From: a virus | Reading direction: 5' to 3' (one strand) | Length of the DNA: 34,613 nucleotides | Virus record (IMG/VR): IMGVR_UViG_3300021170_000006 | Location: 1 to 34,613 of that record | Part shown: piece after piece, positions 6,295 to 34,613 of the stretch | Layout: every line of letters starts with the position of its first letter | Numbering within the stretch: position 1 is the stretch's first letter | The notes under the pieces: generated by a model | The model's database searches: none | Told to the model about the DNA's origin: nothing | Seen by the model: only the letters and a program-made list of their open reading frames with translations | Position numbers and translations under genes: made by a program

Positions 6295-6505
6295 TAATTT
6301 TGATGATAATTTTACAGTTATGTATACACCAACCATGAAACTTTACATAATGGAAATTAAAAAAATAGTTTGTGATAATGAAACTCACACAGCTGTTTTG
6401 TATAAGGGAGAGCTAGCTGTTTTGGATAAGGGAGAGACAAAGGGAGAGACAGCTGTTTTGTATAAGGGAGAGATTGATCTTTCTAAATCATTTTTTAGTG
6501 ACTAA
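6263..6505 (+). CDS. V-G-E-L family small protein (copy 2) with internal repeats
   Basis: I chose ATG 6263 (80 residues), which has GAGAGGGAA six bases upstream; an in-frame ATG at 6194 would add 23 residues inside the helix-turn-helix gene. The N-terminus, M-K-V-G-E-L-K-K-I-L-N-N-F-D-D-N-F-T-V-M, matches the family core. Residues about 43-70 contain A-V-L-Y-K-G-E, A-V-L-D-K-G-E, T-K-G-E and A-V-L-Y-K-G-E, encoded by a DNA minisatellite (6389-6472). Confidence 0.7.
   Translation: MKVGELKKILNNFDDNFTVMYTPTMKLYIMEIKKIVCDNETHTAVLYKGELAVLDKGETKGETAVLYKGEIDLSKSFFSD
6389..6472 (+). repeat. Minisatellite inside the 6263 gene
   Basis: A 24-base block is identical at 6389-6412 and 6449-6472. A near copy (GCTGTTTTGGATAAGGGAGA) starts at 6416, and a 12-base partial unit (ACAAAGGGAGAG) lies between. 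The unit lengths are multiples of three, so the frame is preserved. This is typical of slipped-strand expansion. Confidence 0.8.
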
Positions 6506-10107: not shown

Positions 10108-10718
10108 TATCCCTTTTTCCTTTCACTATAATCGACAAGCTCTATAAGCTCTAACGCTATCCTCTTTTTTTCCTTTTCCATACACCATGCCGGATCGCGA
10201 TTAAGCTCACATTGTACTTTTTCATGAATCTTTCGCATAGCAAGCGCATAGTTATTTTTATCTAACTCAAACCTTCCTGTTTCATCATTATAAGAAAAGA
10301 ATGTTCCCGTATGATCGTGGGCTATTTCCGCAATAACATTTTTCATATTATTGTAATCACTTTCTGGTGGCTCAATTTCTATCTTCTCTTGGTCTCTACC
10401 ATTCATTTCTATCTCCTTTAAAACGTTATAGAAGCAATATTCCACATAAGTAGTTAAAAGATAGTTAATATCCTCATAAGTTTTTTTAGCAGGTTGAGAG
10501 AATGTCCAAGTGGTCTGTGACCCATCTTTCCATACAACCGATATCTCGCCTTTTTCTTTTGAGCCCACGATAAATTTTACACCACCACCCTTTCCTAAAG
10601 AGTTAAACCAACTCCAGGTATATGGTTCGGGTGGCGATGAAAATTCATTAAACTCGTCATTAATACCTTTTAAGCCGAAGACATAATTTTTTAATGTATA
10701 ATCTTTCCAAATACCCAC
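10107..10718 (-). CDS. Hypothetical protein upstream of ERF
   Basis: About 203 residues, first gene of the leftward recombination operon. I chose GTG 10718 with AGGTG six bases upstream; GTG 10727 is an in-frame alternative. The N-terminal half is beta-rich and Trp-rich (Y-T-W-S-W-F-N-S-L-G-K-G-G-G-V-K-F-I-V), with W-K-D-G-S-Q-T-T-W-T-F. The C-terminal half is acidic, then helical. No family recognised. Stop overlaps the ERF ATG, so a role in recombination or early takeover is only suggested by context. Confidence 0.75.
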   Translation of the reverse strand: MGIWKDYTLKNYVFGLKGINDEFNEFSSPPEPYTWSWFNSLGKGGGVKFIVGSKEKGEISVVWKDGSQTTWTFSQPAKKTYEDINYLLTTYVEYCFYNVLKEIEMNGRDQEKIEIEPPESDYNNMKNVIAEIAHDHTGTFFSYNDETGRFELDKNNYALAMRKIHEKVQCELNRDPAWCMEKEKKRIALELIELVDYSERKKG

Positions 10719-10752
10719 GATACACACCTAATTAAATATATTGATTATATAC

Positions 10753-10782
10753 ATAATGTAATATCATCCTTAATTATTTCAA
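10753..10782 (-). promoter_or_regulatory. Possible promoter for the leftward ERF operon
   Basis: On the - strand TTGAAA (10782-10777), 18-base spacer, CATTAT (10758-10753), about 35 bases ahead of the GTG at 10718. The region is very AT-rich, so chance matches are likely. Confidence 0.35.
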
Positions 10783-11058
10783 TATATTTTTGTTTAATAA
10801 AATTTATATTATAAAAAACAAACTATTAACAAAAAGTTAATTTTAATTAAAATAAAAATTTTTGGTGTTTTTTACGAAATTTTCAGAATGGATATTGATT
10901 TTTAAACGCGACCGCGCAAGGATGGTGGTTACGTTTAAACTCTGGATTAACTCAGACAACACTATTATGGGTTTAAACGCTTATTTTTATAGGGGGGTAT
11001 TATGTTTAGAAAGGGGAATCTACCGTGAATTCTAGCTGATTAACCCGTATAAAAAGAA

Positions 11059-11121
11059 AGGCGGCCGTTTAAAGCCGCCTATCCCCTACCAAGAAAATCT
11101 TCAGACTTTCAAAGTAGGGGA
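11059..11121 (+). promoter_or_regulatory. Two consecutive RNA hairpins before the initiator gene
   Basis: Hairpin 1: AGGCGGC (11059-11065) / GCCGCCT (11074-11080), 8-base loop. Hairpin 2, one base later: TCCCCTAC (11082-11089) / GTAGGGGA (11114-11121), with a further imperfect inner stem (GAAAATCT / AGACTTTC). No T run follows hairpin 1, so it is not a simple terminator. The pair sits 44 bases ahead of the initiator ATG and may be a leader RNA structure or small RNA. Confidence 0.6.
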
Positions 11122-11164
11122 AACATTCGCTTATGTCAACCATTCTTTAAAAGGTTCTTAAATT

Positions 11165-12238
11165 ATGATTAAATCCGCCACTTCAGAAAATTTATCTAAA
11201 ATTTTTCCTGGTCGTACGATTGCTTTAAACACAGCTTATATCGACATATCCGGATCTATCACCGCCGGCGTTCTTCTCTCTCAGATGGTCTATTGGGCCA
11301 CGATAAAAAACTTTGGAGAGTTTTATAAAACCAACGAGGAGTTTAGGGCTGAGACCCGCTTGGGTGAATATGAGTTTAGAAAAGCTAAAAATGATCTGAT
11401 AAACCTCGGGGTTATAAAGTGCACGAGAAGGGGCATACCAGCGGTAAGCTACTATCTTGTGGATGTGGATAGGCTATCAGAGCTTCTATCTGGTATTTCT
11501 CTCCCAACAGTACGTGTGGAAACCACGCACCATACGTGTGGAAACCACGCATCTATATATAGAACAGAGATTACTACACAGATTACTACAAAAGAAAAAG
11601 AAGAAGAAAAAGAAACCTCGCCTCCGGCTCGTGTTTTTTGTTCTAAAAAAATTGATGAAGAATTTGAAGAGGCTTACCAGGTTTACGGAGTTTATAAATC
11701 CAAGGGCTATGCTGAGGATGCCTATAAGAAAGCACGCAAGGCTGGTATAAGCCATTATGAGATCATGAAAGGAATTGAGGCTTATAAGTACGATCGGGAT
11801 CAACAGACGCTTAGAAATAACTGGATGCCCGCTCATATGAACTTCAATAGCTGGCTAAGGGCTAAGAAATGGCTAGATAAAGTTGAATTTGTTAAGATTT
11901 CAAATGAAGAAATAGAGAGGATGGAAAAGATTTTTCATGAAGATTTAAAACTTCAATCTGAAATTCACATAGAAAACTTGCCGCCGAAAACTTGGGGTAA
12001 GGTAAGTTCTATCTTGGCTGAAAAGCTAGGGGTACATTCATATAAATCTTGGATAGCGCCGCTAAGACCTAAGTTATTAACGGAGGATGGTTGTTTGTCT
12101 TTAGAGGCCCCAACGCGATTTATCTCGGATTGGGTTGATAGAAACTATGGAAAAGATTTGCTACTGGCCTTCCAAAAGATTAGTCGATCCATTTTGGATA
12201 TTAAAATCATACCGGCCCCATCGCTTAGGGCCGCTTAA
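11165..12238 (+). CDS. Replication initiator: winged helix plus DnaA domain I-like C-terminus
   Basis: A 357-residue protein with three parts. Residues about 1-105 resemble the winged-helix N-terminus of phage replication organisers (I-T-A-G-V-L-L-S-Q-M-V-Y-W, F-Y-K-T-N-E-E-F-R-A-E-T, Y-E-F-R-K-A-K-N-D-L). Residues about 165-240 resemble the middle region of O-type or loader-type proteins, ending W-M-P-A-H-M-N-F-N-S-W-L-R-A-K-K-W. Residues about 275-345 match DnaA domain I: T-W-G-K-V, Y-K-S-W-I-A-P-L-R-P, L-S-L-E-A-P-T-R-F-I-S-D-W-V. Domain I of DnaA binds DnaB and other partners, so this protein probably recruits host helicase. The linker (residues 116-142) is encoded by direct repeats that look like the origin. 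No helicase or polymerase gene is seen, consistent with host dependence. Confidence 0.85.
   Translation: MIKSATSENLSKIFPGRTIALNTAYIDISGSITAGVLLSQMVYWATIKNFGEFYKTNEEFRAETRLGEYEFRKAKNDLINLGVIKCTRRGIPAVSYYLVDVDRLSELLSGISLPTVRVETTHHTCGNHASIYRTEITTQITTKEKEEEKETSPPARVFCSKKIDEEFEEAYQVYGVYKSKGYAEDAYKKARKAGISHYEIMKGIEAYKYDRDQQTLRNNWMPAHMNFNSWLRAKKWLDKVEFVKISNEEIERMEKIFHEDLKLQSEIHIENLPPKTWGKVSSILAEKLGVHSYKSWIAPLRPKLLTEDGCLSLEAPTRFISDWVDRNYGKDLLLAFQKISRSILDIKIIPAPSLRAA
11511..11590. other. Putative replication origin inside the initiator gene
   Basis: Two identical 19-base repeats, TACGTGTGGAAACCACGCA, at 11511-11529 and 11533-11551 (22-base period), each with a GTGG-AAA-CCAC dyad. They are followed by ATATATAG and two GATTACTACA repeats (11569-11578, 11581-11590; 12-base period) and then a long A/G tract (to about 11614). 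Iterons followed by AT-rich repeats and a strand-asymmetric tract inside the initiator gene match the plan of lambda ori within O. The encoded linker is low complexity. Confidence 0.7.
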
Positions 12239-13618: not shown

Positions 13619-13748
13619 AATTAACTCCCAATGCCATCTAATTAAATTATGGTTAATTGTTTTTTAAGTTTCAAGTGTTTTTATTAATTGTGTTTTATTA
13701 AAATTTAAGGTTATTTCTAGTTAATATAGAGAAATTAAGGAAAGTTTG

Positions 13749-14963
13749 ATGACTATAAAATGGGAAGAGCGCGAAGTTCAAATTAAAGATCTTAAGGATT
13801 ATGAGCGTAACCCTCGTCGTATAAACAAAGATCAATTCGAAAATCTCGTGAGATCCCTTAAAGAGGATGGTTATCACCAAAGGTTAATCGTCAATGAGGA
13901 TGGAACTATTATTGGTGGCCATCAGCGTAAAAGAGCTTTATTGGAAGCCGGATTTAAACCATCGGATAAGATCAAGGTTTTAACCCCTCTAGATCCTTTA
14001 TCACTTGAAGATTTTAAGAGGATAAATATCCGAGATAACCTTCCCTATGGTGAATATGATATGGATATGCTCGCTGCTGATTTTGATATTGATGAGTTGG
14101 TGGATTGGGGTATGGCTCCAGAGATGTTTCCTGATTTTGAAAAAATAGGATCTGAGGGTTTAACGGATGATGATGCTGTTCCTGAAACACCTAAAGATCC
14201 AATAACAAAAATTGGTGATGTATACGTCCTTGGTAACCATAGGCTTATGTGCGGGGATTCAACGAGTATGGATGCTATTGAAAAGCTTATGGATGGGCAA
14301 AAAGCCGATATGGTATTTACCGATCCTCCTTATGGAATATCACTAGATACAGATTATACTAGATTTGGTTCCACAAAATCGGTTAAGAGCTTAACCTTCT
14401 GCAAAAGTAAGAGATACGAATACGAAAAAGTAATTGGTGATAATGATGATTTTAAGAGCGAATTAATTACTACCATATTTGCCATTTTTTCTAATTGTAA
14501 GGAAATATTCATCTGGGGTGCCGATTATTTTATTGATCTTATCCCATTTTATAAAGAAGGATCGTGGGTTGTTTGGGATAAGAGAATCGATGAAAATCTA
14601 GATAAGGTTCAAGGTAATACATTCGAATTATGTTGGAGCAAACAAAAACATAAGAGACTTATAGCTCGAATTCTTTGGTCAGGACTAAATGGGATGGATA
14701 AAAATACATCAACAGGTGATGAGGGATTTAGGAGACATCCTACTCAAAAACCCACAAAACTTATAGAGTGGTTCTTTTCTCAATGGGGAAAACCAAATGA
14801 TAATGTGGTAGATCTCTTCGGCGGCTCCGGCTCTACGCTCATAGCTTGCGAAAAGACTAACCGTAAATGCTTTATGATGGAAATATCTCCACATTACTGC
14901 GATGTTATAGTAAAAAGGTGGGAAGATTATACCGGAAAGAAAGCTGAACTTGTTAATCCATAG
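13749..14963 (+). CDS. DNA methyltransferase with N-terminal ParB-like domain
   Basis: A 404-residue protein. Residues about 8-125 form a ParB/sulfiredoxin-like domain (E-R-N-P-R-R-I, I-I-G-G-H-Q-R-K-R-A). Residues about 155-400 form an N6-adenine or N4-cytosine methyltransferase with motif IV D-P-P-Y (192-195) before motif I D-L-F-G-G-S-G-S-T (about 355-363), the beta-class order, preceded by R-H-P-T-Q-K-P. It would transfer a methyl group from S-adenosylmethionine to DNA, probably protecting phage DNA. No partner restriction nuclease is seen. ParB-MTase fusions are common in phages. AAGGAAAG precedes the ATG. Confidence 0.92.
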   Translation: MTIKWEEREVQIKDLKDYERNPRRINKDQFENLVRSLKEDGYHQRLIVNEDGTIIGGHQRKRALLEAGFKPSDKIKVLTPLDPLSLEDFKRINIRDNLPYGEYDMDMLAADFDIDELVDWGMAPEMFPDFEKIGSEGLTDDDAVPETPKDPITKIGDVYVLGNHRLMCGDSTSMDAIEKLMDGQKADMVFTDPPYGISLDTDYTRFGSTKSVKSLTFCKSKRYEYEKVIGDNDDFKSELITTIFAIFSNCKEIFIWGADYFIDLIPFYKEGSWVVWDKRIDENLDKVQGNTFELCWSKQKHKRLIARILWSGLNGMDKNTSTGDEGFRRHPTQKPTKLIEWFFSQWGKPNDNVVDLFGGSGSTLIACEKTNRKCFMMEISPHYCDVIVKRWEDYTGKKAELVNP

Positions 14964-32163: not shown

Positions 32164-34613
32164 ATGTCTTCAGCAATTAGTGATGTTTTACAGAATCCTA
32201 AAGAAGAATCTTCTTCTTCCGATAGTTGGCTTGGTAAAATAGGTAACCTTTTATCTAGTGCCGCAAGCTCAACTGAGGATGCCTTAAGTTCAGCAAAAGA
32301 TTCCCTTACTGGAAATGGAGATAATCTTTTAAATCGGGGCATGTATTCTCTTAACAAAGGGATGGCATTTTTGCCAGATGCTTTAGTTAATGCTCTTTCT
32401 AAAGGAGTTGGACTTGGTAATGTAATTCCACATGATCCCATAGAATCCGCGATGCGTAAAATTGGAGCTATTCAAGATTTACCATCGGCATCAACAACTC
32501 CTCAAAAATTGGCTGAAGGAGCGGGTAGTGCTATTGGATCATCTATTTTACCGCTTGGGGTAGGAGCTGCAGGCGAAGCGGCTGGTACGATAGGGCAAGC
32601 TTTAGGTAAAGCATTGCTTGGAACCGATGCTCCTCTTACCTCAGCATCCCAGCTAGCCAATCCTACAGCCGCCGCTACTCTTGGCGCTACAGTTGCACCT
32701 GTAGCTGCTAAACCAGCTATAGAAAATTATACCCAGAATCCTTTAACCCGAGGGGCTCTTGAACTTGGATCGTCGGCGGTAGGCGGTGGGTTAGCAGGAG
32801 CATTAACAAATATGTTAATGAAATCTCCTGAAACATTACCATTGGTTACCGAGGCGCAGCGTCAAATTCCAGGCACTCCTGAGGCGCGAGATTTAGAAAG
32901 CAAACAGCTTTCATTAATTAGCAGATCACCAAAGGCCGCGGATGCTGTAGATAAAATTTCTTCGAATCAGCAGGATGCGATTATCAATAATCTTCAATCT
33001 GGCGCATCCGGTATGAAAGGAGAAGATGTTAAAGATGCCATCGTTACGGCTGTTCAAAAATTAAAAGATGAAAAGTCTCAGGCTTATCAACAAGGTATGA
33101 AATCTGTTGCAGAACAAAGCGAAAGACCAGAAGGACAACCATTACCATTAACAAATACAGAAGCTGCCGTTAATGATCTTTTGGGTCAAAAATCAAGTGG
33201 TGGAAAGATCTCAAAAACTATAGCACCTATTTTAGATCAAATTAAAGAAAATCAAAATGGAAGCTTACCTGAAATAGCGGATACAGCTAGTGACATTAGT
33301 AAACCTACTCACCCTATTTCAGGATTACAGCTCGGTCAAAAAGAACAATACGCCGCGGGTAAAATTGCCCAAGCTTATGCTGAAGATATTGAGGCGGCTT
33401 ATCCTGGGTTTAAAGCCGTTAATGAACAATATGGCGATCATATGCGCCAACTTGAGAACATTTTGCAAGGACCAGTTGGTAAAGAAGCTAAGTTAGCTGA
33501 TCAATCTCCCTCAAAAGTATTTAAAGATATTTTTGAAAAGGCCGATCCTGAATTACAAACTCAGCTTCAACAAGTTATTCCCGCTCCACTCTATAAACAA
33601 GCTTCTCAGCAATATCTTTCTAATGTAGTAGATACAACCGCCGATCAAACTCCTCTAAAAGGTATGAATAATACCAATAGAGTTGATCAAATGCAGCGTA
33701 TTGGCAATATCCTTAAAAACAAGACTTTGCCTGAAACTCTTCCTGCAGCTGAACAAAAAACAGCAGATCAAGCAATTAGAGATATTCAACAGAATATGAC
33801 TGGGCAAACAAAAGCCCCATACATTCTTAATTCACGAATAGATAATTCAACGCCTGTATTTAGTAGTGGCCAATCATTGGCTGTAGCTCAACATCCCGTC
33901 GGAGCATTAGCAAAAATTGGTGATACATTAATGGGTGGACCCATTAAAAACAATCTTCAATATAATGAAATGATGGGGGCTGGAACTCCTGCAAGTCAAA
34001 TTGCAACCTCAGCAGGACAAAACGCCGCAAGGCTTGGTCAAAGAGCCGCTGAAGTTGATTCTATGAATGCACATTCAAAGCCTCAACCTCAACAAGTTGG
34101 TTCTCAAGTGGCTTTACCTATTACTCCCCAATCACCCAGTTCGATGGATGATTACATGAATTCCCTTGGTATTCGTGGGGATAAGGCACAAGGTCAAATC
34201 CAAATGCAAAAGCCAGGAAGTTCGATGGATGATTACATGAATTCCCTTGGTATTCGTGGGGATAAATCGCCAACCGTTGCGGATAAGGGACCTTTACCAG
34301 CCCTAACTGACGACCAATTAAATTTCTTATCCAAAAAGATTAAAAGCGGGGATTTTAAACCCCTAGCTCATTTTGATGACGCTTATAAAGATTACCAAGA
34401 TCAAATCAAAAATAATCCATATCAAGGTTTAATGGATTCATTACGTGATAGGGAATCCCGCGGTAATTATCAAGCTGTTAACAAACAAGGATTTATAGGC
34501 GCTTATCAAATGGGCGCTCAGGCCTTAGAAGACATTGGATTATTAAAACCAGGTGCTTCTAAGTTTGGCAATCAGATTTTATCTAATCCCAATGCTTGGA
34601 ATATCAACGGTGG
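32164..34613 (+). CDS. Large ejection protein with C-terminal transglycosylase (N-terminal 816 residues; ends at 380)
   Basis: ATG 32164 with AAGGATAG; the frame is open to the window end and continues at position 3 of the left end, giving 900 residues. Residues about 115-235 have Gly/Ala-rich hydrophobic stretches that could insert in membranes. The middle is helical and Gln-rich. Residues about 659-701 include a duplicated 16-residue peptide (S-S-M-D-D-Y-M-N-S-L-G-I-R-G-D-K). From about residue 755 comes the transglycosylase domain with catalytic-type Glu at 764 (D-R-E-S-R-G-N-Y). T7 gp16 carries its transglycosylase at the N-terminus; here it is C-terminal. Confidence 0.85.
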   Translation, partial: MSSAISDVLQNPKEESSSSDSWLGKIGNLLSSAASSTEDALSSAKDSLTGNGDNLLNRGMYSLNKGMAFLPDALVNALSKGVGLGNVIPHDPIESAMRKIGAIQDLPSASTTPQKLAEGAGSAIGSSILPLGVGAAGEAAGTIGQALGKALLGTDAPLTSASQLANPTAAATLGATVAPVAAKPAIENYTQNPLTRGALELGSSAVGGGLAGALTNMLMKSPETLPLVTEAQRQIPGTPEARDLESKQLSLISRSPKAADAVDKISSNQQDAIINNLQSGASGMKGEDVKDAIVTAVQKLKDEKSQAYQQGMKSVAEQSERPEGQPLPLTNTEAAVNDLLGQKSSGGKISKTIAPILDQIKENQNGSLPEIADTASDISKPTHPISGLQLGQKEQYAAGKIAQAYAEDIEAAYPGFKAVNEQYGDHMRQLENILQGPVGKEAKLADQSPSKVFKDIFEKADPELQTQLQQVIPAPLYKQASQQYLSNVVDTTADQTPLKGMNNTNRVDQMQRIGNILKNKTLPETLPAAEQKTADQAIRDIQQNMTGQTKAPYILNSRIDNSTPVFSSGQSLAVAQHPVGALAKIGDTLMGGPIKNNLQYNEMMGAGTPASQIATSAGQNAARLGQRAAEVDSMNAHSKPQPQQVGSQVALPITPQSPSSMDDYMNSLGIRGDKAQGQIQMQKPGSSMDDYMNSLGIRGDKSPTVADKGPLPALTDDQLNFLSKKIKSGDFKPLAHFDDAYKDYQDQIKNNPYQGLMDSLRDRESRGNYQAVNKQGFIGAYQMGAQALEDIGLLKPGASKFGNQILSNPNAWNING
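34138..34265 (+). repeat. 47-bp direct repeat within the ejection gene
   Basis: Identical 47-base copies at 34138-34184 and 34219-34265, 81 bases (27 codons) apart, both in frame. They encode the same 15-16 residues. Perfect identity at the DNA level points to a recent duplication or to selection for a repeated protein-binding peptide. Confidence 0.92.
34487..34613. repeat. Terminal direct repeat, right copy
   Basis: Identical to 1-127; see the left copy. After removing one copy the genome circle is 34,486 bp. Confidence 0.95.

Follow-up and report, generated by a model that had tools for sequence, protein, structure and literature searches.

The DNA between the winged-helix domain and the remainder of the replication initiator gene of this phage is probably its main replication origin, of the lambda type and embedded in the initiator gene itself, a reading to which a probability of about 0.85 can be given from the sequence. 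Iterons, a downstream array of 12-nt units and the least stable window of the gene come together in the linker-coding DNA and are conserved as DNA in related phages, which bears out the proposal of a first-pass annotation that a lambda O-like origin lies within the initiator gene. This kind of layout is already known from lambda, Stx phages, SPP1 and RepA_N plasmids, that is, from few model phages and plasmids. In the present case, one protein family in phages of Firmicutes, Proteobacteria and Cyanobacteria couples phage-specific iterons to a near-invariant 12-nt array, a coupling that would allow sequence-based origin prediction in many phages, and that makes testable both the means by which a phage origin is opened and the way in which helicase recruitment swaps between modules.

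Genome and initiator protein

The window (the whole stretch of 34,613 nt analysed) carries an exact terminal direct repeat of 127 bp, giving a circular map of 34,486 bp, and the genome is therefore probably complete and circular. The GC-skew check suggested by the first-pass annotation gave a divided answer on this map: the detrended minimum falls at 11,283, about 230 bp from the iterons, but the raw cumulative minimum lies at 2,008, and because of this and of the switch in gene orientation near 10,700-11,165 the skew lends weak support to the origin.

The product of ORF 11165-12238 matches PHROG 9773, 'replication initiation O-like', over aa 16-258 (83 bits), and the Pfam model DnaA_N (PF11638) at aa 276-337 (57.8 bits, cut-off 24.6), with 20 aa left past this DnaA domain I. 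Residues 21-110 form a confident winged helix in the AlphaFold model (mean pLDDT >90) and carry conserved LSQxxYW...YKT..E motifs, and the protein beyond them, the DnaA_N region included, is modelled with low confidence from the alignment used. The best fold matches in the PDB include the plasmid initiators 4pql, 4pt7 and 5kbj, all weak (E of about 1e-3 or higher). In the Pfam scan RepA_N (PF06970) was absent from the window initiator at E<=1, so that this likeness is structural only, and PF04492 (Phage_rep_O) matched just one of the 70 initiators scanned, not the window protein. Among the phage proteins scanned, no PHROG or Pfam match to a helicase or loader gene was found, and, since most relatives also lack such a gene next door, a Walker-motif check for an adjacent helicase or loader carries little information.

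Repeats and low-stability segment

The iterons, TATATATA, the two AGATTAC units and the purine tract all fall within codons 116-151, in the stretch that separates the wHTH from the remainder of the protein (Table 1), and the first-pass annotation had located all of these elements correctly, its internal dyads proving to be imperfect. The iterons, with a start-to-start distance of 22 nt, occupy codons 116-129, and each contains the dyad GTGTGG-AAA-CCACGC, which on reading the sequence has 5/6 pairs. They are read in offsets 1 and 2, so that their peptides differ (VRVETTH and TCGNHA), and the lag-22 repeat of the window (18/18 bases) was reached by none of 200 synonymous-codon shuffles. No further site for the 19-mer occurs elsewhere in the genome at up to 4 mismatches. 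The segment that follows contains the longest purine or pyrimidine run of the genome, the least stable 60-bp window of the initiator gene begins at 11551, and only 3.6% of the genome windows are less stable than 11555-11615.

Table 1. Features of the initiator gene and of the candidate origin within it (positions of the window)
Feature	Position	Strand	Basis
Initiator gene, 357 aa: O-like wHTH, linker, middle helical region, DnaA domain I	11165..12238	+	phrog_9773, PF11638
Winged-helix DNA-binding domain codons (aa 20-110)	11222..11494	+	AlphaFold pLDDT, conserved motifs
Iteron 1, TACGTGTGGAAACCACGCA, imperfect dyad	11511..11529	+	exact 19-mer
Iteron 2, identical to iteron 1, other reading frame	11533..11551	+	exact 19-mer
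CTATATATAG palindrome	11553..11562	.	sequence
Array unit 1, CAGAGATTACTA	11565..11576	+	relatives' PWM 19.7, genome best
Array unit 2, CACAGATTACTA	11577..11588	+	relatives' PWM 15.1, genome second best
Purine tract of 26 nt, right part of the proposed unwinding element	11590..11615	+	run length, duplex stability
DnaA domain I codons (aa 276-337)	11990..12175	+	PF11638 match, alignment to E. coli DnaA

Conservation of the layout in relatives

A profile built from the wHTH alone retrieved 80 IMG/VR loci, reduced to 39 non-redundant genes, which together with ten phage genes and the window make a set of 50 genes picked by protein and not by DNA motif. The 49 other O-like initiator genes share the layout of iterons followed by the array. 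Upstream of the array, the best repeat recurs at a lag of 23 nt in 46/50 genes and of 22 nt in the other four, the window included, and this upstream repeat is significant against synonymous shuffles (p<0.05) in 86% of the 50. Since neither 22 nor 23 is a multiple of three, successive copies are out of frame with one another and cannot owe their existence to the protein. The window conforms to the layout of PHROG 9773, with a period of 22 and then two AGAYTAC units 12 nt apart in linker DNA, and it has two iterons, when many relatives have three or more. In four relatives (L144, L165, L194 and L200) an HNH-like nuclease sequence lies between the wHTH and the array within the initiator ORF, placing the array at nt ~750-790 of the gene.

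The iteron sequence differs from phage to phage. None of the 15 IMG/VR matches to GTGTGGAAACCACGC from the window iteron falls in an O-like gene, and neither these IMG/VR matches nor 385 alphaproteobacterial genomes, where the protein gave one marginal match, yielded a close relative with the same initiator; the single match in the genome-contig search was a host dnaA and not the same initiator.

The downstream unit, CAGAGAYTAC(TA), is near-constant from Firmicutes to cyanobacterial phages, with a spacing of 10-12 nt. Of the repeats noted in the first-pass annotation, only the iterons are specific to this phage, and the GATTACTACA repeats are a family-wide element. The array is conserved at the DNA level: the genes hold 104 CAGAGAYTAC sites (<=1 mismatch) against 29 +/- 4 in synonymous shuffles, with a maximum of 41. 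Codon use inside the TE[ITN]T-type motif peptides is equally biased, with GAG for Glu in 65/65 cases (44% elsewhere), ATT for Ile in 31/31 (43% elsewhere) and only ACA or ACT for Thr in 164/164 (50% elsewhere). All three frames are represented among copies of the AGAYTAC core, which encodes ET/EI, DY or RL and is spaced by 12, 11 or 10 nt. The first-pass suggestion to ask in relatives whether the repeats are conserved as DNA and the linker protein is not was thus answered in its favour by shuffles, codon use and the three frames.

An exact 22-mer from the array matches at least 120 IMG/VR stretches and, among the 80 matches listed, lies within an ORF and in the same frame in all 80, from genomes of ~32-62% GC. 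Phages with the array include those of Acinetobacter, Klebsiella, Staphylococcus, Bacillus, Geobacillus, Lactobacillus (mv4), Synechococcus and Vibrio, among others, and across these genes the array has an AT content of 0.61 vs 0.50 for the gene (Wilcoxon p 3e-11). No relevant description of the array sequence or its peptide was found in the open-access literature, and the paper on Pseudomonas phage MD8 notes repeats within its O-like gene. Two candidate members were discarded: the best matches of lambda, in its AT-rich region, are within shuffle range, and in a Wolbachia WO record the array-like stretch sits in an unrelated protein and matches no better than chance.

Two further sequences resemble the array outside initiator genes. 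In Felixounavirus bumzen (L303:1001-1033), CACAGATTACTACACAGATTACTACAAAG (TQITTQITT) forms an annotated repeat region in a membrane protein gene. The CRISPR spacer ACTCGTCTATATATACAGAGATTACTACAGAGAT of the Picosynechococcus plasmid pAQ4 (NC_010478, L320:1988-2021), beside type I-D cas1/cas2, matches the conserved array, apparently host immunity aimed at a phage origin.

A free-standing fragment on Bacillus plasmids

Seven small Bacillus plasmid records carry iterons and array outside the genes listed for them in a collection whose gene table is incomplete. In Bacillus velezensis pBamNAU-B3a (NC_022531, L319:2405-2581), iterons like those of Bacillus phage PM1 are followed by the array, with 76% identity to PM1 limited to ~180 bp that take in the iterons, the array and a little of the DNA downstream, and with an extra base between iterons and array. 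Within the fragment examined there was no match to the wHTH or to the C-terminus, and the plasmids with the PM1-like fragment are small, mobilizable and without an initiator gene nearby. The ~180-bp fragment looks like a cis-acting origin cassette, and selection on the initiator protein hardly accounts for it. Such a fragment could allow the plasmid to exploit phage replication, or serve as an anti-phage decoy.

Origin model and alternatives

The most likely pathway would start with the N-terminal winged-helix domain, probably as dimers, binding the two dyad iterons. The bound complex would strain the adjacent low-stability segment formed by TATATATA, the AGATTAC units and the purine tract, which would open under negative supercoiling, and the C-terminal DnaA domain I would then recruit DnaB, the replicative helicase of the host, to the strand so exposed, filling the role of lambda P or of the DnaC-like or DnaD-like partners in related phages. 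The 12-nt units probably act as a recognition or entry element of the melted strand, rather than as a second duplex iteron, and any specific reader of them can be named only with low confidence.

The DnaA domain I is the part of this pathway peculiar to the window among the initiators scanned. In E. coli DnaA, Glu21 and Phe46 contact DnaB, and Trp6 mediates the dimerisation of domain I (PMC5448010). According to the alignment, Phe46, Trp6 and Trp50 are kept in the window as F319, W277 and W323, and Glu21, the second DnaB-contact residue, is replaced by a serine. The description of a DnaA-like tail in the first-pass annotation holds for domain I (PF11638) and not beyond it, since the AAA+ domain III and the DNA-binding domain IV of DnaA are absent from the Pfam scan, in which no further model matched. 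Direct recruitment of DnaB by this tail is the somewhat favoured role, and the fusion would suggest a phage initiator with a built-in docking site for the helicase, similar to the one on the initiator of the host. Among the 70 initiators scanned, the C-terminal modules were Phg_2220_C in 10, DnaB_2 in four, DnaT in two, HNH in several and DnaA_N in one, that of the window, so that the DnaA_N fusion rests on one sequence, as no relative with the same fusion was found. The best matches of this domain in the plasmid collection are alphaproteobacterial, which makes an alphaproteobacterial host plausible, if unproven.

As for the array, a tentative proposal, with somewhat more doubt than belief behind it, is that it represents an undescribed and near-universal element of O-like origins, where single-stranded or melting DNA would be read by a factor shared across phyla, either a replication factor of the host or a conserved surface of the wHTH. 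The array would then be the phage equivalent of the 13-mers in plasmid unwinding elements or of bacterial DnaA-trios, and could move together with the iterons as a cassette among initiators whose helicase-recruiting tails differ, the tail in this case being a captured DnaA domain I. A related but unlikely possibility is that the 12-nt array is itself DnaA-trio-like and bound by host DnaA, with the DnaA_N tail contacting host DnaA and not DnaB. DnaA-trios consist of consecutive 3'-[G/A]A[T/A]-5' trinucleotides next to DnaA boxes. The strand opposite AGATTACTA reads TAGTAATCT, so that each unit has a pair of neighbouring [T/A]A[G/A] trinucleotides, a DnaA box that departs from the consensus by 1 mismatch is present at 11464-11472, and the Trp through which DnaA domain I dimerises is conserved. 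However, by inspection no unit has more than these two trinucleotides in succession, DnaA-box-like sites number 18 over the window vs 10.7 expected by chance, a slight excess, and AGAYTAC, the best-conserved portion of the unit, is not a trio repeat.

Many initiators bind iterons for copy control, and sequence alone cannot separate binding from initiation, so the iterons might serve as an autoregulatory operator or incompatibility element of the initiator and not as a replication start. This alternative is less probable still, as the site is found 340 nt into the gene, far beyond the start codon, and goes together with a low-stability segment in the layout of the tested origins of lambda (PMC7466680) and pSK41 (PMC5703833). 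That the repeats arose by chance or from a protein-driven low-complexity linker (TEITTQITTKEKEEEKE), without DNA function, is very improbable: the linker is of low complexity, probably disordered and included in the PHROG family alignments, but the iteron period of 22-23 nt shifts the frame, both repeats are lost in synonymous shuffles, the array core is found in three reading frames, and a gene-less copy exists on plasmids.

Comparison with known replication systems

The embedded origin proposed here has a precedent in lambda, whose O gene contains 19-bp imperfect inverted repeats and whose origin can be unwound with no more than two iterons and the AT-rich region (PMC7466680). Lambda O/ori-lambda and the Stx phages P27 and 933W share with the window an origin in the middle of the initiator gene and 19-bp imperfect-dyad iterons ~20-24 nt apart, with a low-stability purine-rich segment just downstream (TTACAAAAGAAAAAAGAAAAG in lambda, CTACAAAAGAAAAAGAAGAAG in the window). 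However, lambda O belongs to a different wHTH family, matching PF04492 when the window initiator does not, its iteron sequence is unrelated, the CAGAGAYTAC array has no significant counterpart in lambda, and DnaB is recruited there through P, whereas a fused DnaA domain I is proposed for the window phage. The O-like initiators of PHROG 9773, 6493 and 428 have a homologous wHTH, an iteron period of 22-23 nt and the array in the same place, and differ in their C-termini, which are Phg_2220_C, DnaB_2/DnaD, DnaT or unassigned, DnaA_N being limited to the window (1/70).

The Rep protein of pSK41 has a wHTH in its N-terminal domain (NTD), boxes central within rep, a dispensable linker and a host-specific C-terminal domain (CTD) that binds DnaG, and in Rep of the phage/plasmid hybrid pPR9 the block of NTD plus origin has been swapped (PMC5703833). 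These RepA_N initiators show the same succession of NTD, ori-linker and host-recruiting CTD, and are among the best fold matches of the model, but the window lacks a RepA_N Pfam match, the CTD of pSK41 is DnaD-like and not a DnaA domain I, and the fold E value is only ~1e-3. SPP1 gp38/oriL, set beside the window by description, also has its origin within the initiator gene, whereas SPP1 encodes its own helicase and loader. Finally, two Rhodobacterales plasmid proteins (WP_347309639 and WP_094037469) combine an apparent wHTH-like N-terminus with a C-terminal DnaA_N, but they represent another, shorter alphaproteobacterial protein (225-237 aa), without O-like motifs, and have no function in their records.

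Other features of the genome

Elsewhere in the window, positions 13746-14963 encode a ParB-like N-terminal domain fused to a DNA methyltransferase (phrog_498, PF01555). An exact 47-nt direct repeat (34138-34184 and 34219-34265, 81 nt apart) lies near the map end, and a 34-nt repeat is present in 3 copies, with AGCTGTTTTG..TAAGGGAGAG, at 6380-6473.
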